This document shows positions 1,318 through 33,534 of a stretch of DNA of 33,534 nucleotides, piece after piece; within the stretch, counting starts at the first letter, position 1, and each line of letters starts with the position of its first letter. The stretch comes from a virus, in the IMG/VR virus record IMGVR_UViG_3300001750_000017, positions 1 through 33,534 of that record. The stretch is one strand, 5' to 3'. Made by a program: the position numbers and the translations under genes. The notes beneath the pieces were generated by a model that was not told the DNA's origin, did not search any database, and saw only the letters and a list, made by a program, of their open reading frames with translations.

Positions 1318-1821
1318 TTAGCGCCCTTCAGGCTTTTCAGCGCCCTCTATAAGCCCAAGCAAGCGCTCCCGATGAAGAAGCGCCACCTCAGTAGGCATAA
1401 CAACAAACCTGTCCCCGTATTTATTATCCCACAACTTTACTACCTGGGCGTTCCATTCCGGCCAGCATACAAACATCCACCTTAAGCTTGGGTAAATCGA
1501 GATACCACTCTTTAAGAGCCATCTGTTTAACTCCTTCAAGTCTCTGTCATCGTCATTAAAAGCGCGATTCTCCAGATGCCTTTCCACCTCTTGAAACCAC
1601 GCTGCATACCCAGTCACAAGGCTGTGCCCAGGATAAACCGTTACCCACTGGAAAGCTTTCTCGATAAAGCCCTCACTCCAACGCTTCTTACAGTCCTCAT
1701 TCCGGCGTATTACCCGATACCCCTCAAGTTTAAGCTCCGTAGCTTCTAGCGCCTTTAGACGAGAAAAATACTCTTTCTTTTTCTCTTCCGGGTCCTCACT
1801 ATCACCTGGATAAACAATCAC
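1318..1821 (-). CDS. Hypothetical Trp-rich protein, 167 aa
   Basis: Not recognised. It is a soluble protein rich in Trp, Arg and Glu, with an N-terminal charged helix (about residues 9-35) and several aromatic clusters (FQWVTVYPG, LRWMFVCWPEW). The start is GTG at 1821; its GTGA overlaps the TGA stop of the small terminase gene, so the two are likely coupled. It lies directly downstream of the terminase small subunit, but nothing in the sequence links it to packaging. Confidence 0.78.
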   Translation of the reverse strand: MIVYPGDSEDPEEKKKEYFSRLKALEATELKLEGYRVIRRNEDCKKRWSEGFIEKAFQWVTVYPGHSLVTGYAAWFQEVERHLENRAFNDDDRDLKELNRWLLKSGISIYPSLRWMFVCWPEWNAQVVKLWDNKYGDRFVVMPTEVALLHRERLLGLIEGAEKPEGR

Positions 1822-2345
1822 AACCTGCCATCCTTTTTCAAAGCCTCAGTAATATCCTCTACCATCTGTTCAAGCTCAGTGACCTTCTTAATTTCAGCAT
1901 GACTTCTAATCACGCTAATAGCCTTATCAGCTTCTTCAACCGTAATCTCTCCATCTGCTAACTCATGCATAATGGCGTCAGCTCTTTCATCTAGGGTTGC
2001 TTTCGGGTTCTTAGCTAGCAAGCCTTTCAATCTTTTAACCTCAATCCTACGCCCCTTGTCTGTGTAAACATCCGGATGCCTGTTGCGCATGACACGAGAC
2101 CAGATAAACCCGTTGAACTTAGGATTATCTAGATTCCCCTTTGCTTTCCTCTCCCACCAGGCTAAACCCTTCATACGAGCTATTCCATAAGCCGCATCAA
2201 ACTCTTTGTACTTCTTAAGCCAATCATAAAACGTACAGGCTGCTATCGAGGCCTCAGAGCAAAACTCAGCCATTCCATCACCTGCTGAGAGGGTGTCTAT
2301 CAACAGTTGGGGGTAAGTTTCTTTGTATTTTTTAGGTGTCGGCAT
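1818..2345 (-). CDS. Terminase small subunit (DNA packaging)
   Basis: This is the likely DNA-recognition subunit of the packaging motor, which binds the packaging site and brings the large subunit to concatemeric DNA. The N-terminal 60 residues hold a helix-turn-helix typical of phage small terminases: an acidic helix (GDGMAEFCSE), a recognition helix beginning in TFYDWLKKY, then an aromatic helix with LAWWERKA. The C-terminal half is a charged helical oligomerisation and tail region. An ATG at 2354 is only one base from its GGAG, so I chose the ATG at 2345, ten bases away. Unusually, its partner large subunit is at the far end of the operon (10612-11937). The assignment rests on fold pattern, not on a long conserved motif. 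Confidence 0.75.
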   Translation of the reverse strand: MPTPKKYKETYPQLLIDTLSAGDGMAEFCSEASIAACTFYDWLKKYKEFDAAYGIARMKGLAWWERKAKGNLDNPKFNGFIWSRVMRNRHPDVYTDKGRRIEVKRLKGLLAKNPKATLDERADAIMHELADGEITVEEADKAISVIRSHAEIKKVTELEQMVEDITEALKKDGRL

Positions 2346-2796
2346 TGTTTGCATTCTCCAATAAGAAATCTACAGTCTTTCTAAAGAAAGATTCAAATCG
2401 AGTTTTATTCTCTATATCCGGATAATGCTCTGTACAACTGAAGTATGAGAAATAAAAACTCCCCCCCTTCTCCTGAGCTACCTCATCCACTATTTTTACC
2501 ACAAAGATATAATCATACCCTAGATTTTCGGCAGGCTTCGACAAGGCCGCCACATCTTCGAACCGCCAGCACAGAGTTATTTTTTCAGAGCCTCTCTTTA
2601 TACGGATAAATTCCGAGCGCGCACCACTCCCCCCTCCCCCAAAAAGGTGGTCCCATAAAAAGGAAGAACTTTCAAGAGGGGACCATTTACAATAATCATC
2701 CTCGTGCCCCTCTTGAGGAAGCTCAATATTCCCATTCTCATCAAAGACAGTAACTCTTCCTATCCATAAGGGCGGTTCTTTTTCATTTGTCGGCAC
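2332..2796 (-). CDS. Hypothetical late-operon protein, 154 aa
   Basis: Not recognised. It shows a Trp/Ile/Val-rich N-terminus, a Gly-rich loop (FGGGGSGAR, about residues 52-60), several strand-like stretches and a C-terminal helix (FFRKTVDFLLEN). The start is GTG at 2796, nine bases after GAGGAG; no nearby ATG has a ribosome site. Its 3' end overlaps the small terminase start. It has the strands-then-C-terminal-helix outline seen in several small genes of this operon, but I could not align it convincingly with any of them. Confidence 0.75.
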   Translation of the reverse strand: MPTNEKEPPLWIGRVTVFDENGNIELPQEGHEDDYCKWSPLESSSFLWDHLFGGGGSGARSEFIRIKRGSEKITLCWRFEDVAALSKPAENLGYDYIFVVKIVDEVAQEKGGSFYFSYFSCTEHYPDIENKTRFESFFRKTVDFLLENANNADT

Positions 2797-4244: not shown

Positions 4245-4634
4245 TTAATGAACTGTACTATCACATTCGTCACATTCATCATGGTCGCCCATACAGACTT
4301 CCGTTGTTTGATATGTAAACCACTTTCCTAAACCCCAAATCGCCGCCGGAAGCTCCTCGCGAATCGTCTTCTCCGGAAACTCCAGCTCATATAAGCAGCC
4401 TCTTTCCCCTTCACTGGAATCAAAGCTTATTTGCACCTTTAGAAAGCGCCTTTCTGAGGTGGGACCATGCACTACAGTACAAAAATCAATCCTGCCACTA
4501 CTACCTTTGTAAAAATTAAAAGTTAACTCAACCTTTTCTTCTTCATCCACCTTCACAGAAAGTAAAAGCTCACAGTACCTAACAAGGCCTCGACCTTTTT
4601 CCTCCGCGTCGCATCCCCAGTCCATCTTTCCCAT
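4245..4634 (-). CDS. First late-operon protein; C-terminal His/Cys/Asp-rich tail, 129 aa
   Basis: Not recognised. The body looks beta-rich (LLLSVKV, VELTFNFY, LKVQISFD) with a C-terminal helix. It is followed by an acidic tail with Cys, His and Asp residues (CMGDHDECDECD) that could hold a metal ion. The frame opens at 4661, but the ATG at 4634 has a proper GGAGGG ribosome site about six bases upstream and is preferred. It is the first gene after the divergent promoter pair, with a leader of roughly 35 bases, so it should be the most promoter-proximal product of the long minus-strand operon. Confidence 0.8.
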   Translation of the reverse strand: MGKMDWGCDAEEKGRGLVRYCELLLSVKVDEEEKVELTFNFYKGSSGRIDFCTVVHGPTSERRFLKVQISFDSSEGERGCLYELEFPEKTIREELPAAIWGLGKWFTYQTTEVCMGDHDECDECDSTVH

Positions 4635-4675
4635 ATTGTCCCTCCATAAAAACATTAGCACCCCATCGACACCTC

Positions 4676-4705
4676 ATAATATGCTCATGGATACACATTG
4701 TCAAC
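4676..4705 (-). promoter_or_regulatory. Sigma-70-like promoter of the long minus-strand operon (motif copy B)
   Basis: On the minus strand there is TTGACA (4704-4699), a 17-base spacer and TATTAT (4681-4676). Its 30 bases match the plus-strand promoter at 4747-4776 at 25 positions, including spacer bases GTGTA and CATGAG, so more than the -35 and -10 boxes is conserved. The expected start point is near 4669, about 35 bases before the first gene. Confidence 0.85.
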
Positions 4706-4746
4706 ACAAAGACAGGAGGGCATTTCTTACTTCTTTCAGTATTGTT

Positions 4747-4776
4747 GTTGACACCGTGTAAACATGAGTATATTAT
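4747..4776 (+). promoter_or_regulatory. Sigma-70-like early promoter (motif copy A)
   Basis: TTGACA (4748-4753), 17 bases, then TATTAT (4771-4776) is a near-consensus sigma-70 promoter facing three small plus-strand genes. It is arranged back to back with the minus promoter, 41 bases apart, so the pair forms a large imperfect inverted repeat. The shared spacer bases suggest a common regulator. Confidence 0.87.
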
Positions 4777-4821: not shown

Positions 4822-5121
4822 ATGACTTTAACAAAATTTGAATACAGCTTGCTAAGGGACCTGCATATATTCCAGAAAGACTTAAGGGATATGTATTCCT
4901 GCCTTGACAAAGCCAATGAGGAAGCTATTAAAATACAAGAAATCCTTCTCCATAAGGTTACTTATCTTGAAGATAACGTTAAAAATACACTATGCAACAT
5001 TGTTGCCATAAAAAGCTTCACTAGAGATTTAAACAAGGTTAGAGGAAGGTTGGCCGTTTCCACGCTTGCAGTACACCAATCAATTAGAGATAACACCTCT
5101 TCTACAGGAGAAGAAAAATGA
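4822..5121 (+). CDS. Early helical protein, 99 aa, unknown
   Basis: Not recognised. The protein is almost entirely predicted helix with heptad-like spacing of Leu, Ile and Val, so it probably forms a coiled coil or helical bundle. The frame opens at 4777, but that TTG falls on the promoter -10. The ATG at 4822 follows AAAGGAG at the right distance and gives a sensible leader of about 40 bases. It is the first of three overlapping or adjacent genes from the promoter at 4747-4776, and its TGA overlaps the next ATG. As an early small protein it could act on the host, but nothing in it shows how. Confidence 0.83.
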   Translation: MTLTKFEYSLLRDLHIFQKDLRDMYSCLDKANEEAIKIQEILLHKVTYLEDNVKNTLCNIVAIKSFTRDLNKVRGRLAVSTLAVHQSIRDNTSSTGEEK

Positions 5122-5288
5122 ATGAACAACTATACAACGAAGTTACCACTCTTTTTGAAGTTATCAATAAAACCCTTCAGAACCCAGCCATCGCTGAAGA
5201 TAAAATAATTAGCACAAAGATAAAGGAACTTGAACAAGCGGCAGCCGGGATGTATGGCGAATTAGCTTTTTCAATAAAGGAGTCTTGA
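5118..5288 (+). CDS. Early small helical protein, 56 aa
   Basis: The gene begins with ATG 5118, overlapping the upstream stop as ATGA, with CAGGAGAAG upstream, and ends in TGA just before the ribosome site of the next gene. The product looks like two helices joined at an Asn-Pro (LQNPAIAED), acidic to neutral, with no membrane segment. No family recognised. The coupling on both sides supports a real gene. Confidence 0.75.
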   Translation: MNEQLYNEVTTLFEVINKTLQNPAIAEDKIISTKIKELEQAAAGMYGELAFSIKES

Positions 5289-5289
5289 T

Positions 5290-5484
5290 ATGAACGACCA
5301 AGCAAACAAAATGTTAAGAGAAACCCATCGTGCCCGCCACCAGTTTCGCAGACTAAAGAGCATGTATGACCGCACTGTGTACTGTAGAAACAGCTCAAGG
5401 ATGAGGAGGCTAAACGCTCTCATAGAAGAGTTGAAATTTAGAGCGGATATGACCTACTCGATATGGATGGATATGATGCTTTAA
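5290..5484 (+). CDS. Early small basic protein, 64 aa
   Basis: The product is Arg- and Met-rich (HRARHQFRRLK, SSRMRRL) and helical with a strong positive charge, which suggests nucleic-acid binding. The last residues are hydrophobic (YSIWMDMML). The start ATG 5290 has AAAGGAG upstream, overlapping the end of the previous gene. It is the last gene of the three-gene plus unit and is followed by a strong hairpin. Family unknown. Confidence 0.78.
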   Translation: MNDQANKMLRETHRARHQFRRLKSMYDRTVYCRNSSRMRRLNALIEELKFRADMTYSIWMDMML

Positions 5485-5527: not shown

Positions 5528-5563
5528 GCAAGTAAGTGGGTCTGTCTGGGGAACCTTACTTGC
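5528..5563. repeat. 9-bp inverted repeat overlapping a stop codon
   Basis: GCAAGTAAG at 5528-5536 and its complement CTTACTTGC at 5555-5563 flank an 18-base loop. The right arm covers the stop codon (5556-5558) of the minus gene. Together with the adjacent terminator hairpin it gives two stem-loops in a row. It could stabilise the 3' end or be a protein site. Confidence 0.55.
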
Positions 5564-6020
5564 ATGCACGAAACTCTAACACAACCTCTTGCTTGTCAGC
5601 AACGTTTACACCTTTTTTTCTTAACTCATCATACAAAGGGGCACGCAAAGAAGGAGGAGTAATAGAAGTTATTTCAACCTCGTACTCTTCATAATCTTTC
5701 AAGGTTAACCAACGCGCTTCAATAATAGAAGCCCATTCTTTTACAAGCTGTCTTTCAGTAGCTGGAGAGTTCCAAGTTATTTTAAGGACCTCAAAAGCCG
5801 GTTCATTTGCTGCCTCTAGCTCAGGGTGATGAACACCCTCATCATCTAGAACGGGAGCTGATGGCGCGGGAAGCGGTTTAATAACCTCAACCTTGTTGCC
5901 GCCTTTTACAAATACCACTTCAAAACCACCATACCTGCTGACACTTTCCTCAAAACCTTTTTTTCTCATGAAGAAAGAAAAATAATCTTCTTCATAACGA
6001 GAATTACGATAAAAAAACAT
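5556..6020 (-). CDS. Hypothetical monocistronic protein, 154 aa
   Basis: Not recognised. The N-terminal 40 residues are aromatic and charged (MFFYRNSRYEEDYF). A Pro-rich linker follows (about residues 48-60, PLPAPSAPVLDDEG), then a mixed domain with strand-helix-strand pattern (FEVLKITW, QLVKEWASIIEARW, YEVEITSI). It has its own promoter (6061-6089), an ideal ribosome site (AGGAGGTGAT) and its own terminator, so it is an independently controlled unit between two plus-strand blocks. Such isolated strong units in phage control regions often encode accessory (moron-like) functions, but the function is unknown. Confidence 0.83.
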   Translation of the reverse strand: MFFYRNSRYEEDYFSFFMRKKGFEESVSRYGGFEVVFVKGGNKVEVIKPLPAPSAPVLDDEGVHHPELEAANEPAFEVLKITWNSPATERQLVKEWASIIEARWLTLKDYEEYEVEITSITPPSLRAPLYDELRKKGVNVADKQEVVLEFRACK

Positions 6021-6152: not shown

Positions 6153-6173
6153 ATTACAACCAATGGTTGTAAT
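6153..6173. promoter_or_regulatory. Perfect 21-bp palindromic operator
   Basis: Arms ATTACAACCA and TGGTTGTAAT are perfectly complementary around a single central base. The site overlaps the predicted transcription start of the two-gene plus unit whose second gene encodes a helix-turn-helix regulator, which is the classic position for an autoregulated Cro-like operator. I saw no second full copy. Confidence 0.75.
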
Positions 6174-6198: not shown

Positions 6199-6441
6199 AT
6201 GAAAATTAACACTGTTTGTGCTTACATCTACCCAGAAGGAAAAAGATTTAGAGTTGATTTAGAAGGCGCAGCCAAGTCAACCTTTCACTTCCCAACATTA
6301 GAAAATGCTCTAATTCATGTTAAAAACAATGTCAGTGAACCTTTAAAATTTATCGCATGCCCTCTCTCTGAAGAATTTATAGAGGATAAACCCGTCAAAG
6401 CTTCTAAACCCGGGAAGAAAGATGCCGAGAAGCAAAAATGA
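6199..6441 (+). CDS. Hypothetical protein coupled to the Cro-like gene, 80 aa
   Basis: Not recognised. It shows an N-terminal strand (INTVCAYIYPEG), a short alpha/beta body and a Lys-rich C-terminal tail (KPGKKDAEKQK). The frame is open from 6163 inside the operator palindrome, but only the ATG at 6199 has a ribosome site (CCGGAG). Its TGA overlaps the ATG of the helix-turn-helix gene (ATGA), so the two are translationally coupled and probably work together or share dosage. Confidence 0.78.
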   Translation: MKINTVCAYIYPEGKRFRVDLEGAAKSTFHFPTLENALIHVKNNVSEPLKFIACPLSEEFIEDKPVKASKPGKKDAEKQK

Positions 6442-6698
6442 AAAAAAAACTGAATCCCAACATACAAGAAGCTATTAGTATTTTTGGAACTCAGCAAAAG
6501 ATGGCTAATAAGCTCAATGTGTCTCAAACGGCAGTTTACAAATGGCTTTATTGCTTGCGCAAACCAAGTCCTGAGAATGCCGTTAAAATTCAAGTAATGA
6601 CTAATAGCAAAATAAAGGCTACAGATTTACTGCCTAGCTACCGTGATGATTTTTTTATATCAAAACTGAAATCTGTTTTCAGCTCAGAAATAGGATAG
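6438..6698 (+). CDS. YdaS/Cro-like helix-turn-helix regulator
   Basis: This is a small DNA-binding regulator of 86 residues. Residues about 10-50 match the YdaS/Cro-type fold: a helix ending in IFGTQQKMANKL, a turn (NVSQ), and a recognition helix (TAVYKWLYCL), followed by the typical KPSPENAVKI helix. The C-terminus (TDLLPSYRDDFF) resembles family members that end shortly after the fold. In other prophages such proteins act as Cro-type switches. The perfect palindrome at 6153-6173 in front of its operon is the obvious target. It is coupled to the 80-aa gene upstream. Confidence 0.85.
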   Translation: MKKKLNPNIQEAISIFGTQQKMANKLNVSQTAVYKWLYCLRKPSPENAVKIQVMTNSKIKATDLLPSYRDDFFISKLKSVFSSEIG

Positions 6699-6981: not shown

Positions 6982-8091
6982 CTATCTTGGTGCGCTCTTC
7001 ACCATTTTCCTGGCTTCGGCAATTATCCTCTCAGTTTCTGCTGTTCGCTGAGGACGCCCCTCCATCTCCTCCAGCTCAAATTCTTTTACCGGGGCATAGA
7101 CAGGCGCTTTCTCATTTCTTCCACTTTCTGAACGCCAGTAGGCTTCATCGAGATTCACTGCATCCTCCCAGCGTTCTCGCTGTAGCCAGCGCACGGGATA
7201 AATCCACTCTGGCACAAAGGCGCCGTATTTTTGTTTAAGCCCGGCTTCTAGCACCTGAGCCTTGAGAGCTTTTAGCATGACAAGCGCTAACTCTTCGCTC
7301 GGATTTATTTTTTGATAAACCTGGCGGCATTTCGCTTTCTCTAATTTTTTAGGGTAAGCCTTCCACCAGGCCTCAAACCCCTCTTTCCAATTCGAACTCA
7401 TTCCCTTGTCCTCTTTATCTCCAAAAACCCGATTTGGGGGGTAAGTATTATTATTATTATATATAATATTATTATATATATTATTTATATATATATTATA
7501 TATATTACTTATAGCTTTTGCCCATCTTCTGTTCTTACGAATAAAAGGAAAACTTTGGTCATTCATTTTTTTTGTAAGTCTATGTTTTTCACCGAAAATA
7601 AAAATTCGAATAATTAAATAGAATCTGTACAGGTGTTTCTTCTTTATTTTCATAGCCTTGCGAGAGGCAAACTCGTACACGTCTGATAAAACTAAAGTTT
7701 TCTTGTTATTTAATTGTAGTTTTTCTTCTCGTGATAGCTCATTTTTTAGTCTGGGAACCGGTATTTTAGAGGTTTTTTTGCGTCCATACTGCACAATATA
7801 TGCATTTAGATTTAATATCTGCCCGTAATAATTCCCATTTTCAGAGTACATTATTATCATCCTGTACATACGAAGAACGTTCAATGCCTCCATTGTGTCC
7901 AGAGATTTGGAAGCGTCCAGGGGAAGTATTTTCTCCATCAAGATTTCTTTTTTCCATTCGAATCGACCTTCGCTATCAGAGAAGCAGAGAAGGTTGGTGA
8001 AAAATATTCGAAATGGATAGGCGAAAAGCTTCTCTAAATCCATTAAAGTCGGACTTTCAAAGACGCGCCCTTTTAGGCTGTAACACTCCAT
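6982..8091 (-). CDS. Replication initiator (lambda O / DnaT-like)
   Basis: Likely the phage replication initiator that melts the origin and recruits the host helicase. The N-terminal about 130 residues look like a winged-helix domain. The C-terminal part (last about 150 residues) carries the signature of phage replication proteins and DnaT-like domains: WWKAYPKK, then a helix, AFVPEWIYP, and WLQRERWED. Between them is an odd Asn/Tyr/Ile-rich linker encoded by a 62-base pure A/T tract. The frame opens at GTG 8127, but ATG 8091 has a perfect AAGGAG six bases upstream and is chosen (369 aa). It is divergent from the XRE repressor, as in lambdoid control regions. No helicase, primase or polymerase gene accompanies it. 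Confidence 0.78.
   Translation of the reverse strand: MECYSLKGRVFESPTLMDLEKLFAYPFRIFFTNLLCFSDSEGRFEWKKEILMEKILPLDASKSLDTMEALNVLRMYRMIIMYSENGNYYGQILNLNAYIVQYGRKKTSKIPVPRLKNELSREEKLQLNNKKTLVLSDVYEFASRKAMKIKKKHLYRFYLIIRIFIFGEKHRLTKKMNDQSFPFIRKNRRWAKAISNIYNIYINNIYNNIIYNNNNTYPPNRVFGDKEDKGMSSNWKEGFEAWWKAYPKKLEKAKCRQVYQKINPSEELALVMLKALKAQVLEAGLKQKYGAFVPEWIYPVRWLQRERWEDAVNLDEAYWRSESGRNEKAPVYAPVKEFELEEMEGRPQRTAETERIIAEARKMVKSAPR
7446..7507. other. Candidate DNA unwinding element (origin) inside the replication gene
   Basis: Sixty-two consecutive bases are only A or T, built from TAT/ATT and TATATA repeats, in the middle of the replication gene. Lambda and relatives place the origin inside the initiator gene beside an AT-rich region that melts. 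I did not find clear iterons next to it, so the origin call is inference. Confidence 0.5.
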
Positions 8092-8119
8092 GGCTTTCTC
8101 CTTAAGCGGAATAACAAAG

Positions 8120-8149
8120 GTTGACACTTCGTATCCATCCTATTACTAT
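8120..8149 (+). promoter_or_regulatory. Promoter of the XRE repressor gene (motif copy C)
   Basis: TTGACA (8121-8126), 17 bases, TACTAT (8144-8149). The 30 bases match motif copy B at 21 positions, including the spacer block GTATCCAT. Transcription should start near 8156, just before the repressor gene. Confidence 0.75.
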
Positions 8150-8164
8150 GTTTTTTTTTGTCAA
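8137..8164 (-). promoter_or_regulatory. Promoter of the replication gene, overlapping the repressor promoter
   Basis: On the minus strand TTGACA (8164-8159) is followed after 16 bases by TAGGAT (8142-8137). It overlaps the plus-strand repressor promoter so closely that one polymerase should exclude the other. Confidence 0.6.
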
Positions 8165-8181
8165 TACACAGGAGTTACTCA

Positions 8182-8535
8182 TTGAAAGATAAATTGACCA
8201 TGGGACAGAGGATTACGAAGGCGAGAAAAAACCTAGGGCTTACCCCTCTCGAGCTTGGAGTTGAGATTGGCGGCCTTACCAAGGCTACTATCATTAAGTG
8301 GGAGAGGGACATGGTTAGCCCTTCTGTTCCCAGCTTTATGGCGCTGTGTGATTTCCTGAAGTGCGATCCTCTTTGGTTATTCACAGGGGGTACGACTTTA
8401 AAAAAAGACAATAAAAATGTTCGCCTGAAAAAAGATGCAGCGGCTCAAATATTTGATATTCTTGCTGAACTTCAGAAATTATATACAAAGGCTGAGAGAT
8501 GTATGGAGAAAGTCTCACAACTAAAGAAGAAATAG
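8182..8535 (+). CDS. XRE-family (CI-like) repressor, TTG start
   Basis: This is a likely lysogeny-type repressor. Residues about 7-60 form an XRE/HTH_3 DNA-binding domain: GQRITKARKNLGLTPLELG, a turn, then TKATIIKWERD and the family-typical SVPSFMALCDFL and DPLWLFTGG. The C-terminal 45 residues are a charged helix suited to dimerisation. There is no LexA-type peptidase domain, so it would not be cleaved by RecA like lambda CI. The frame extends to 8158, but AGGAG at 8170-8174 fits a TTG start at 8182, and no ATG has a ribosome site. The rare start codon may keep its level low. It is divergent from the replication gene. Confidence 0.85.
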   Translation: MKDKLTMGQRITKARKNLGLTPLELGVEIGGLTKATIIKWERDMVSPSVPSFMALCDFLKCDPLWLFTGGTTLKKDNKNVRLKKDAAAQIFDILAELQKLYTKAERCMEKVSQLKKK

Positions 8536-10306: not shown

Positions 10307-10615
10307 ATGCTAATCTTGACTCTGAAAGAAGAGATAAAGGTTCTTCTATATATGGGAGAGAGAATTTACTCTCTCTCTCTCTCTTATAATGGGGATGAAA
10401 AAGTTCAGTTTAAAATATTCGAGAAGTCTGGGGATTACTTTTTCTTTAAGGAAAAATTTATTTTAAATAAAAAAGATGCGGAACCCTATTGTTTTAAGGG
10501 CTGTGTGAAATTTTTCTACATAAGTTCAAAAACAAAGACTGTGGTTATGGGGTTTGAAGCCCCTCCGGATGTTCATATTATAAGAAGTAACTGCAAGAAA
10601 AAATTACACGTCTAG
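10307..10615 (+). CDS. Hypothetical beta-rich protein, 102 aa
   Basis: Not recognised. The predicted protein is beta-strand rich (KVQFKIFEK, DYFFFKEKFIL, CVKFFYISS, TVVMGFEAPP) with four Cys and a basic C-terminus. The ATG at 10307 lies two bases after the upstream stop with a poor ribosome site; the ATG at 10349 after AAAGG is an alternative. Near the N-terminus a run of eight CT units encodes Ser-Leu repeats. The stop overlaps that of the large terminase on the other strand. Confidence 0.68.
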   Translation: MLILTLKEEIKVLLYMGERIYSLSLSYNGDEKVQFKIFEKSGDYFFFKEKFILNKKDAEPYCFKGCVKFFYISSKTKTVVMGFEAPPDVHIIRSNCKKKLHV

Positions 10616-11937
10616 TAGGGGTCCCAATCTTTCATCTTTCTAACCCCTCCTGCAACAGTTTTAAGGCCATGCCAACCCAGGGCAAAGTACCGGAGCGCAT
10701 CGGCTCCATGCGAAGCCCAGTTGTGCACGGGAGCTGAATAAGTTTTTTTTGTGGGGTCGTACTGAGAGTGGTACTCCTTCAGACACTCCATTCCATAATC
10801 ACAATTTTCAGCGTCAATACGAAACCTTTGAAAAAGAGCCCTAACTGCCTCTATCCCGTCAATGATGTAAGCTTTCTTAACGGTCCTAAAATTTATTCCA
10901 CACCGAGCGGCATACTGTTTTCTGGTTAAGCCTGAACTTAATTCTTGCACCTCTATATCGTGAGGTGCGAAATGGATATCAAAATGAACTTTGTGTTTTT
11001 TTTTGAAATCATGCATGTATTTTGCATAGTGGTCCATGGGCTGCCTGCGGTTTTCATAATAAGAAACCAGCCTAATCTCCGACCCTTTCACCTGTATTAT
11101 CCAGATTGACGTAAAGTCATCTATCCCCAAATCCCAAGAGCTGTATGTTTTTAATTTAGGCTCTGGTTTAAATACCCCCACTCTTTGTTCGTCATAGGCT
11201 TTTTTAATTTGAGCTGCATAGTAAGCTCCCGGGAGGGCGGCTTCAAATGAGCAGTAGAATTCCTGCTGCACAATCTCCTCCGACATCCCACTGGCTCGTT
11301 CTTCATCTATTATTTCCTGTGTGACGACCGGTATGGTTTTGGCTGCGTCTCTGAATGTGTCTTCTACTGTCAGAACCCGAGTCAACCATTTTGGGTTGTT
11401 TTTATTCTGAGTCAGCAGCTTGTAAAAATGATTGTGTCCTCGAGGTGTCCCATTGAATATAGCCCACCCCCCATTCTCAGCTAAAATGGGACGCACGTAT
11501 TCCCATGCCAGTGGATTGTGGTGCTGAGTTTCTGAGCTTATGTAGCCTATGGGGTTGGTCCCCATGACACGGTCGTAATAATTAGTTCCACCAAACTTTA
11601 GGATGGAGCCATTTTTAAATGTTATTGAAAGCTTGGAGTTATTTGTCTTAGCGACTAGACGGTCAGGTATGTGGTCCAGGTATCTCATCCCGTTGCGGTC
11701 AATACCATCCCACATAACATCCCTGGCCTGGGTTGCCGTGGGAAACATATAAACATATGTTCCCACTCTCATCTGCGTTGCTGCTACAGCAAGATTAAGG
11801 AAGCACTTGTCTTTTCCCGCTCGACGGTGCTCCACAGTGACGATTCTCTTGTATCCTTTTACAAAGAAATCATGGAATAATGCTGACTGATAAGTGCGAG
11901 GTTCAAACCTGTGAGGAAGCTGAATAACGTTTGCCAT
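10612..11937 (-). CDS. Terminase large subunit (TerL)
   Basis: The ATP-driven DNA packaging motor and nuclease, 441 residues. The ATPase half has a Walker A-like loop HRRAGKDK (37-44), a Walker B strand GYISSE (131-136) in which Ser replaces the usual Asp, as is common in this TerL subgroup, and the coupling motif GTPRG (163-167). The nuclease half shows WDLG (Asp269), an Asp in APHD (Asp327) and HGADALRY (Asp413), the expected RNase H-like metal ligands. Start TAATG overlaps the holin stop. It is the last gene of the minus operon. Its length is normal to slightly short for podovirus TerL. Confidence 0.95.
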   Translation of the reverse strand: MANVIQLPHRFEPRTYQSALFHDFFVKGYKRIVTVEHRRAGKDKCFLNLAVAATQMRVGTYVYMFPTATQARDVMWDGIDRNGMRYLDHIPDRLVAKTNNSKLSITFKNGSILKFGGTNYYDRVMGTNPIGYISSETQHHNPLAWEYVRPILAENGGWAIFNGTPRGHNHFYKLLTQNKNNPKWLTRVLTVEDTFRDAAKTIPVVTQEIIDEERASGMSEEIVQQEFYCSFEAALPGAYYAAQIKKAYDEQRVGVFKPEPKLKTYSSWDLGIDDFTSIWIIQVKGSEIRLVSYYENRRQPMDHYAKYMHDFKKKHKVHFDIHFAPHDIEVQELSSGLTRKQYAARCGINFRTVKKAYIIDGIEAVRALFQRFRIDAENCDYGMECLKEYHSQYDPTKKTYSAPVHNWASHGADALRYFALGWHGLKTVAGGVRKMKDWDPY

Positions 11938-25412: not shown

Positions 25413-26042
25413 CTAGCTTAGCGGGGTCAATACCCAGTTAACCTTGATTGAAAATACTCCTGCTTGAGTATTTGTATCATTTGTAACCTCAAGTAACGTG
25501 TCCGAACTAATGAAAATTGGGGGGACCGAAAAAATAACTTTTACATCTGTTCCATGGGTAGTTAAATTATCGGTATGCAGTGTATTTGCGCCCTCTTTGA
25601 AGGACACAAGGAAAGGGCCGACTGCCGCTCCAGAATAAGAATACTCAATCCTCTCAATCTGGTAGCTTGTTGGGTTTGATGGGTCTAGTTGAGGCGCGAA
25701 AATACCCTCTGTCTGAGGTGGGGCTTGAGATAGCATATGGTTACCAATCGTTTGGTAAACCACTACATGCCTACTAGCAGTCTCATTGCCAATAATCTTG
25801 GTAGTAACCGAGCCAAATGAGGATGAGACCACCTTTAATACTGCGTACAAGCTAGGCATAACACCCAAAGAAGTAATACACTCAAGAATGTCGCCACGCT
25901 TCAATGTGACCGCCTTATCGTTGAAGTAATTATTTGATGATACTTCAGCTAGGTCATCTACACTCGAGTAGGCGTAAACCATAGGAGCGGCGGTATTCTT
26001 TCCGGAAGAAACCATGTTAAATGTTTCAAGTGTAAAAGCCAT
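25413..26042 (-). CDS. MAF-domain structural protein with beta-sandwich tail, 209 aa
   Basis: Residues 1-75 are the MAF domain (MVSSGKNTAAPMVYAYSS, NNYFN, LKRGDILE, VLKVVSSS). Residues about 90-209 form a separate beta-rich domain with strands such as RIEYSYSG and VGPFLVSFKEGANTLH. The C-terminal domain resembles that of its upstream neighbour in layout and in segments (PFLVSFKEG versus PFGVSFLVG; INWILQP versus VNWVLTP). This shows a duplication followed by divergence. Probably exposed on the virion; function inferred. Confidence 0.75.
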   Translation of the reverse strand: MAFTLETFNMVSSGKNTAAPMVYAYSSVDDLAEVSSNNYFNDKAVTLKRGDILECITSLGVMPSLYAVLKVVSSSFGSVTTKIIGNETASRHVVVYQTIGNHMLSQAPPQTEGIFAPQLDPSNPTSYQIERIEYSYSGAAVGPFLVSFKEGANTLHTDNLTTHGTDVKVIFSVPPIFISSDTLLEVTNDTNTQAGVFSIKVNWVLTPLS

Positions 26043-26051
26043 AATAAATCC

Positions 26052-26678
26052 TTAGCTTGCTGGTTGTAAAATCCAGTTAATGTAAAGCCCAGTAACACTT
26101 GGATGAGGCTGGCTGTCATTCCTGAAGACCAGAGGGTCATTTGCCCCTACAAGCTGAGAGCTTGTGAAGCTCCCTTTGTTGTTGGGTCCAACTGAGGTTA
26201 AGTCAAGCGAATGAACAACAGTTGCTCCTACCAGGAATGAAACTCCGAAAGGACTGCCGCTAAGCTCGATGTAGTTAAATGTAGCCCCTAGTAAAGTGAA
26301 AGTAGCTACACCACTAATGGTTGTCGGAGGGTAAATATTAAATGAAGTTGGGGTCGCTACACTAATCTGCGTGTTATTAATGTGCTGAGTTAAAGTTATA
26401 ATTCCAGAAGCACCTAAGCCTCCAAAGCTTATTTCTTCAACAACAACCCCGCTAATTGAGGAACTTACTACTCTAAAGAATTTATATACTGGCGTGGCTG
26501 CCATATCTAAAGAGGATTGAATTAAGTCATTCTCACGAAATTTTAAATAAGCCGCGTTAAAATAATTAGCCAACTCGACTGTTGCGGCGGAATCATTTGT
26601 AATGTAAGCGTACGTAGTAGGGGCAAATGTATTCATCCCTGATGATATTGTATTTAAACCTTTTAATTCAAATGCCAT
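26052..26678 (-). CDS. MAF-domain structural protein with beta-sandwich tail, 208 aa
   Basis: This is the first of three tandem relatives. The N-terminal 80 residues hold the common domain (TISSGMNTFAPTTYAYIT, ANYFN, FRENDLIQ, FRVVSSS). The C-terminal 120 residues are beta-rich and end in YINWILQPAS, like the second paralog. The start ATG has GGAGAATAG upstream, following a hairpin after the capsid gene. Placement next to the major capsid gene suggests a head decoration or fibre protein. Confidence 0.75.
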   Translation of the reverse strand: MAFELKGLNTISSGMNTFAPTTYAYITNDSAATVELANYFNAAYLKFRENDLIQSSLDMAATPVYKFFRVVSSSISGVVVEEISFGGLGASGIITLTQHINNTQISVATPTSFNIYPPTTISGVATFTLLGATFNYIELSGSPFGVSFLVGATVVHSLDLTSVGPNNKGSFTSSQLVGANDPLVFRNDSQPHPSVTGLYINWILQPAS

Positions 26679-27740: not shown

Positions 27741-27769
27741 AATATATCCAAAATCAATTTAAATGTCAA
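27741..27769 (-). promoter_or_regulatory. Capsid gene promoter
   Basis: TTGACA (27769-27764), 17 bases, TATATT (27746-27741) on the minus strand, just after the scaffold stop codon. Transcription would begin near 27735, giving a leader of about 160 bases. A 9-bp inverted repeat (27751-27759 with 27777-27785) flanks the -35 box and may be an operator. Confidence 0.8.
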
Positions 27770-32712: not shown

Positions 32713-32764
32713 CCTCATGCTCCTTAAGGGCGCTCATCAACTTTTCTCTAGTTAACTCGCTCAT
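32702..32764 (-). CDS. Possible 20-aa coupled leader peptide
   Basis: A tiny ORF (MSELTREKLM...) starts with ATG overlapping the TGA of the 136-aa gene and runs through the ribosome site and start of the next gene, ending 11 bases inside it. Continued translation through this ORF would bring ribosomes to the next start, as in coupling leaders. It is too short to be sure. Confidence 0.35.
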   Translation of the reverse strand: MSELTREKLMSALKEHEDES

Positions 32765-33171
32765 TCGCCTTTCCCCCGGCTAATCACAGTCCGGCACATC
32801 CCTGCTATTCCGTACTTCATCTTGAATTTACCCCCTGTTTTTAAATAATCCTTCATCCTAATCTGAGGGATAAAGAAGAATCTAGGGTGAATTGGGGATG
32901 GCTTGGCAATCTCTTCCAGTATCTCTCTTCTCCCCCGAGGGGACGCAGCTATTTCTTCTGCATCGGTATGTAGCATCATATTATCGCGGGAAGGGTCGGT
33001 AACAATCCCATGGGGGCTCCTGACCCACCAAACTAGAAGGGTGGGCACAAAACTTAGGTTGTCCTCTATTACCCATTCGATATGCTTATAAGTCGGGAAC
33101 CGGCCAATCAACCCCACCATGAACCTATTCACGCGTCTTTCGACCCATGCTTCATCTCTGCTTACACTCAC
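32761..33171 (-). CDS. Hypothetical late-operon protein, 136 aa
   Basis: Not recognised. It has a charged N-terminal helix (AWVERRVNRFMVGLIG), a strand region with repeated Trp (KHIEWVIED, LLVWWVRSP), and a C-terminal basic segment (RMKDYLKTGGKFKMKYG). The start ATG overlaps the upstream stop (ATGA), and its own stop overlaps the tiny ORF. No known motif. Confidence 0.75.
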   Translation of the reverse strand: MSVSRDEAWVERRVNRFMVGLIGRFPTYKHIEWVIEDNLSFVPTLLVWWVRSPHGIVTDPSRDNMMLHTDAEEIAASPRGRREILEEIAKPSPIHPRFFFIPQIRMKDYLKTGGKFKMKYGIAGMCRTVISRGKGE

Positions 33172-33491
33172 TCTTCTTCTATCTCCCCTCTTAATTGCCT
33201 CAACCTATTCCGGAGAGGGCGAATAAAATCCCTGCCTTCATTTGACTCATCATAAAGCATGGCTGTAACCCAGCCAGACCCTGCCGCCTCCATTTTAACT
33301 TGAGCAAGCCTGGTGACTCGGACAGGCGATATTTTCTCCCACGCGGCAATATCGATATTCTTCATTTCCCCACTATCTAACTCGGCTTTAAATTCAGCCT
33401 CCAAAATAGTTGAAAGTCTTAACTTAACCTCGGGACCCCAGGCAGGGTCCGTATCCATAATATTATTACCAATCGCTACTCTACTCATCAT
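33168..33491 (-). CDS. Small late-operon protein, W-V-T motif family
   Basis: A protein of 107 residues, unknown function. After a variable first half it shows VKMEAAGSGWVTAMLYD, which lines up with the WVT-Asp strand of the 19-390 protein, and it ends with an Arg/Glu-rich helix. The start is ATGATG at 33491/33488, about six bases after GGAGGG, inside the terminal repeat. In the circular form this ATG overlaps the TAG of the 19-390 gene. The single repeat mismatch would change its fifth residue from Val to Gly. Confidence 0.78.
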   Translation of the reverse strand: MMSRVAIGNNIMDTDPAWGPEVKLRLSTILEAEFKAELDSGEMKNIDIAAWEKISPVRVTRLAQVKMEAAGSGWVTAMLYDESNEGRDFIRPLRNRLRQLRGEIEEE

Positions 33492-33534
33492 CTCTTCCCT
33501 CCACTCTTCTCACTAAGGCCTCGGCTAGCTTTTC
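33463..33534. repeat. Right copy of 72-bp terminal direct repeat
   Basis: Identical to 1-72 except for A at 33478 (C at 16). It contains the ribosome site and first codons of the gene at 33168-33491 and, in the other frame, the end of the gene at 19-390, which shows that the genes connect across the join. Confidence 0.93.

Follow-up and report, generated by a model that had tools for sequence, protein, structure and literature searches.

Candidate operators in the spacers of divergent sigma-70 promoters of a podovirus, with a conserved counterpart in the MEP301 phage family

Two divergent promoters of a podovirus genome, m and p, resemble each other in the spacer as well as in the -35 and -10 boxes, and the spacer of m resembles a strongly conserved element in the equivalent promoter of the MEP301 phage family. 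On balance these spacers probably hold operators: a phage-encoded regulator, acting as a repressor, is predicted to bind at m, at p and probably at a third promoter, x. Binding, repression and the use of one protein at all three sites are predictions from sequence comparison.

The window, the whole stretch of 33,534 nt analysed here, is an entire viral record. A 72-bp direct repeat at its ends (positions 1-72 and 33463-33534, 71/72 identical with one mismatch) shows that it forms a circle of 33,462 bp, even though the record carries the class linear. The phage is a podovirus with structural genes related to those of MEP301, pelagiphages and small Vibrio podophages, and the window proteins scanned include no RNA polymerase and no integrase. 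Because the window closes into a circle, m heads a run of minus-strand genes of ∼27.5 kb, which passes from 4661 through 1 and 33491 to 10612. The first gene of the run (4245..4661, with a probable start ATG near 4634 behind GGAGGG) belongs to no known family; the run then passes a terminase small subunit-like gene (1818..2354) and the portal, capsid, tail and lysis genes, and its last gene, beyond the circle junction, encodes the terminase large subunit (10612..11937). An earlier note had placed the whole late minus operon under the promoter pair. Structurally the circular contig bears this out, but the capsid gene has a strong minus-strand promoter of its own (27741..27769, 11/12 box matches) in which the motif is absent. 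Beside the capsid gene, 25413-26042 and 26052-26678 appear to be a tandem duplication, both N-termini matching phrog_18004. The same note had also placed the early plus genes under the pair, which was overstated: p does face plus-strand ORFs, but only three small ones of no known family (4822..5484, comprising 4822-5121, 5118-5288 and 5290-5484) lie before a minus gene in convergent orientation (5556-6020), which has a terminator-like hairpin of its own (5522-5490). No DNA-binding family could be assigned to the genes behind m and p.

Promoter m lies on the minus strand at 4704-4676 (TTGACA ATGTGTATCCATGAGCA TATTAT) and p on the plus strand at 4748-4776 (TTGACA CCGTGTAAACATGAGTA TATTAT), so that both have the boxes and the 17-nt spacing described in the earlier note. 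Each matches the sigma-70 boxes (TTGACA/TATAAT, 16-18 nt apart) at 11 of 12 positions; a score of at least 11/12 is reached by just four window sites, m and p included. The 25 of 30 shared bases that had been claimed are likewise found, as 24/29 identical positions plus one preceding G; within the spacers 12 of 17 bases agree, including GTGTA and CATGAG. Of the pairs that the promoter-like spacers of the window form, more than 99.9% are less alike: among 1,251 promoter-like spacers of 17 nt, 173 of 781,875 pairs (0.02%) reach 12/17 identity. A combined m/p pattern allowing up to three mismatches has no other site in the window and none in 100 shuffles. The operator-like elements are TGTATCCATGAGCATA in m and TGTAAACATGAGTATA in p, each an imperfect dyad (TATCC-ATGA-GCATA and TAAAC-ATGA-GTATA, respectively) with four of five pairs. 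Two other readings of the spacer, as a DnaA box and as a palindrome centred on CATG, failed on inspection.

Conservation of the spacer is seen in the MEP301 family. Among the named relatives examined, MEP301 has one 11/12 promoter, which heads the leftward operon and has the spacer CAATGTATCTATGAGA. Host promoters are to be expected in this phage, since its published genome has no RNA polymerase gene (PMC8024684); the word ‘promoter’ is absent from that paper (PMC8024684), and literature searches found no description of an operator in the family. Relatives of MEP301 were fetched through rusA rather than through the motif, because selection on the motif was to be avoided, and this gave 80 contigs in which promoters were picked as TTGACN-N16-TATRMT with the spacer ignored (43 sites, 21 of them non-redundant). 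In the 21 promoters, spacer positions 6-16 carry 1.42 bits/column, against 0.65 for spacer positions 1-5, 0.38 for the 40 nt upstream and 0.57 for the 40 nt downstream; the values for the boxes (1.70 and 1.77 bits/column) are fixed by the search pattern. The conserved core, TATCT-N3-AGATA, is a dyad with a variable centre that extends into the -10 box, and it is kept without an adjacent duplicate. Relatives that retain only the -35 and -10 boxes, which the earlier note had considered as counter-evidence, are thus not what this family presents: its members keep the spacer.

Like m, the MEP301 leftward promoter is of the sigma-70 type, heads an operon with terS and structural genes, and has TGTATC(C/T)ATGAG in its spacer at the same distance from TTGACA. 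It differs in its 16-nt spacer and perfect dyad, and in having no second copy of the element back-to-back with the first. The rightward promoter of several family genomes also carries the element, ∼0.75-2.35 kb away and on the opposite strand, as in G060 (TTGCAC AAAACGATATCTATGATA TATAAT) and in MEP301 itself (∼34690-34720, TTGCAT TAATCGATATCTTTGTTA TATACT); in G060 and G061 the leftward and rightward cores are identical. Within the family genomes the dyad is restricted to these two operon promoters, apart from one match (‘site B’, TATCTGYRAGATATTAT) that lies inside the MEP301 acetyltransferase gene and was judged to be coding. The presence of one element in both directions is thus a pattern of the MEP301 group; its positional counterparts in the window are m and x, and p is an additional copy next to m. 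A sub-branch of the family (L194, L199, L204-L210 and L218) has a shifted element, TTGACT-AGATATCTTTA(G/C)ATGA-TATGAT, before the gene of the winged-helix/Rep-like protein, an instance of operator turnover within the family. In MEP301, the conserved promoter is followed first by a minus-strand ORF that the annotation lacks (33110-33343); a second unannotated ORF, which is cysteine-rich, occupies 33682-33881 on the plus strand, where a minus gene is annotated.

The search of related phages for the spacer motif, which the earlier note had proposed, succeeded in the MEP301 family and found nothing in more distant relatives. The motif is absent from Vibrio phages ZCVPP1, CKB-S2 and 1.257.O, Alteromonas phage ZP6, Dunaliella virus SI2 and the pelagiphages Hodr and HTVC028P, and from 80 capsid relatives, many of which are partial contigs. 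The m/p region has no DNA similarity to the phages searched, and neither the plus gene behind p nor the portal has relatives among the viral contigs; as no close relative of the window phage was found, p has no conservation footprint of its own. Searches of viral contigs with the full pattern returned nothing, or chance matches in unrelated coding genes (L006, L007), and a looser pattern gave 28 stretches, in which the intergenic-looking matches outside the MEP301 type (L031, L038, L041/42 and L026/27/32/40) show no detectable capsid-gene kinship and are compatible with chance. One contig, L056/L057 (G009 contig 138, 34,441 bp), which was binned in a Flavobacteriaceae MAG, encodes a capsid protein that shares 44% identity with the window capsid; it is probably a podovirus genome.

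A matrix built from 12-13 MEP301-family spacers, with the window sequence excluded, ranks m first among 67,044 window positions. The site stays first when MEP301 is left out and comes third with the TTGACC/G branch alone, while in the main matrix runs p ranks 55-63 and x about 190-235. An equally good site occurs somewhere in 11 of 60 random genomes, and what counts in this result is therefore that place and register coincide: by a rough estimate of our own, the chance that the best match of the genome falls in exactly the m spacer and in register is ∼1e-5, with no correction for the roughly ten relatives examined. The agreement is with the left half and centre of the element, TATCT-ATR-AG at a fixed distance from TTGAC, which is present in m and matched less well by p. 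In place of the family's right half AGATA, N3 centre and 16-nt spacer, the window has AGCATA or AGTATA, an N4 centre and 17-nt spacers.

The third site, x, is a plus-strand promoter at 8121..8149 (TTGACA CTTCGTATCCATCCTAT TACTAT, box score 10/12) that precedes the gene of an XRE protein and is the positional counterpart of the MEP301 rightward promoter. The left half of the element, GTATCCAT, stands in its spacer in register with m; the window holds five copies of this 8-mer where 0.83 would be expected, and two of the five are those in the spacers of m and x. A reverse promoter-like site at 8164-8137, facing the gene of a Replication-initiation-like protein, overlaps x (together they span 8121-8164), and because of this overlap the two may be mutually exclusive in use. 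That minus-strand gene (6982..8127, phrog_270) is of the same PHROG class as the MEP301 winged-helix protein, and a run of TAT/ATA repeats lies inside it at 7440-7510; AT-rich stretches of this sort can mark a replication origin. Elsewhere in the window, a perfect palindrome, ATTACAACCA-A-TGGTTGTAAT (6153-6173), sits within the spacer and -10 box of an 11/12 promoter at 6178-6150, which has the minus gene 5556-6020 on one side and the plus genes that lead to a YdaS-like gene on the other; it is a second, different operator-like site.

The spacer likeness of m and p could have arisen by inverted duplication, a piece of ∼38 bp having been copied from m to p or the reverse, in which case the shared spacer would be leftover ancestry rather than the product of selection. 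Both promoters do lie in an imperfect inverted repeat (4676..4776), recovered by a repeat search of the window, with 38-bp arms at 4676-4713 and 4739-4776 that are 79% complementary and separated by 25 nt. The repeat continues for ∼9 bp past each -35 box on its upstream side, where m and p match at 6 of 9 bases, nearly as well as in the spacer (71%), and for this reason the pair alone does not separate function from duplication. The MEP301 family favours function, in that it keeps the spacer element with no neighbouring duplicate, and m is the best match to that element in the whole window; duplication as the full account is unlikely, but it may be how p arose, which is compatible with function.

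Chance, through the sampling of many promoter pairs, has in its favour that strong boxes need no regulator, that many promoters and relatives were compared, and that random genomes can hold an equal matrix match. The rarity of spacer pairs so alike, and the place and register of the best genome match, make it very unlikely. Instead, the host RNA polymerase might favour promoters with the motif, or a host regulator rather than a phage protein might bind it, which would account for its presence in both the window phage and MEP301, yet with no shared DNA-binding protein detected. Against this, MEP301-family genomes have the dyad nowhere but in the two operon promoters and one coding match, and the other strong window promoters (27769 and 6178) have no such motif; a host origin is quite improbable.

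A phage regulator thus remains the preferred reader of the element, and the candidates differ between the two groups. In the MEP301 family, each of the 43 listed loci with the promoter has, in the operon and adjoining rusA, a gene for an RHH (CopG/Arc-like) protein (32729-32890 in MEP301), and its strand PFLVRLTP is nearly invariant (PFLVKLTP in L190). The Rep-like winged-helix protein of the family was set aside as the regulator: it diverges to about 35% and its recognition helix is changed, yet the operator core does not vary with it. Because the RHH strand is nearly invariant under the same core, the RHH protein is the better candidate in that family. In the window, the DicA-like XRE/HTH_3 protein (8182..8535, plus strand) is the first candidate, and its own promoter, x, has the left half-element in the spacer; a YdaS/P22 Cro-like DNA-binding protein (6438..6698, plus strand) is the second. 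The RHH protein has no match among the window proteins scanned (early proteins), and tblastn found no counterpart of the XRE or YdaS-like protein in MEP301.

The mechanism proposed here takes m and p as host sigma-70 promoters, each of which has an operator in its spacer that extends into the -10 box. A sigma-70 promoter that scores 11/12 and has its boxes 17 nt apart should need no activator; since the boxes of m and p are already near consensus, a repressor overlapping the spacer and the -10 box is the simplest reading. Binding would shut off the leftward run (through m) and the short rightward operon (through p), and probably also the XRE/recombination operon through x. In favour count the likeness of the m and p spacers, the conservation in the family, the first rank of m, and the way in which m and x repeat the both-direction pattern; against it count the imperfect dyad and differing spacing in the window, the ranks of p and x far below that of m, and the lack of detected counterparts for the candidate regulators across the two groups. 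The earlier suggestion of a regulator that probably recognises the spacer thus gains strength from the family conservation and from x, and may be held with moderate confidence for m and with less for p. The further suggestion, that early and all late genes are under joint control, finds support in part only.

Operators embedded in phage promoters are known in principle. In the lambdoid divergent regions (lambda OR, P22, DicA/DicC), as in the window, phage promoters diverge; regulator sites overlap the boxes there, as the candidate sites would in the window, and the window phage encodes DicA-like and YdaS/Cro-like proteins. The lambdoid regions differ in that they share tandem operators, whereas each window promoter has its own single candidate site, and in that the window regulator genes (at 8182 and 6438) are not directly behind m and p. 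The dyads that overlap the two window promoters are imperfect, and a conserved dyad is seen only in the MEP301 family. Phages also have RHH repressors of the Arc/Mnt/CopG type; with these the comparison holds for the MEP301 family, which has an RHH gene.

More tentatively, and with considerable doubt, podoviruses that depend on the host polymerase may share a conserved circuit, in which the same operator lies in the sigma-70 spacers of both directions and its logic outlasts an exchange of the DNA-binding protein between distant lineages (an RHH protein in the MEP301 family and perhaps the XRE protein in the window phage); a second copy would have made the back-to-back pair of the window. Gene control in marine podoviruses that have no RNA polymerase of their own is little studied. 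A spacer operator that dozens of phage contigs and one distant relative share at the head of their main operon would provide a concrete DNA target, with a short list of candidate binding proteins: the RHH protein in MEP301, and the XRE or YdaS-like protein in the window phage.
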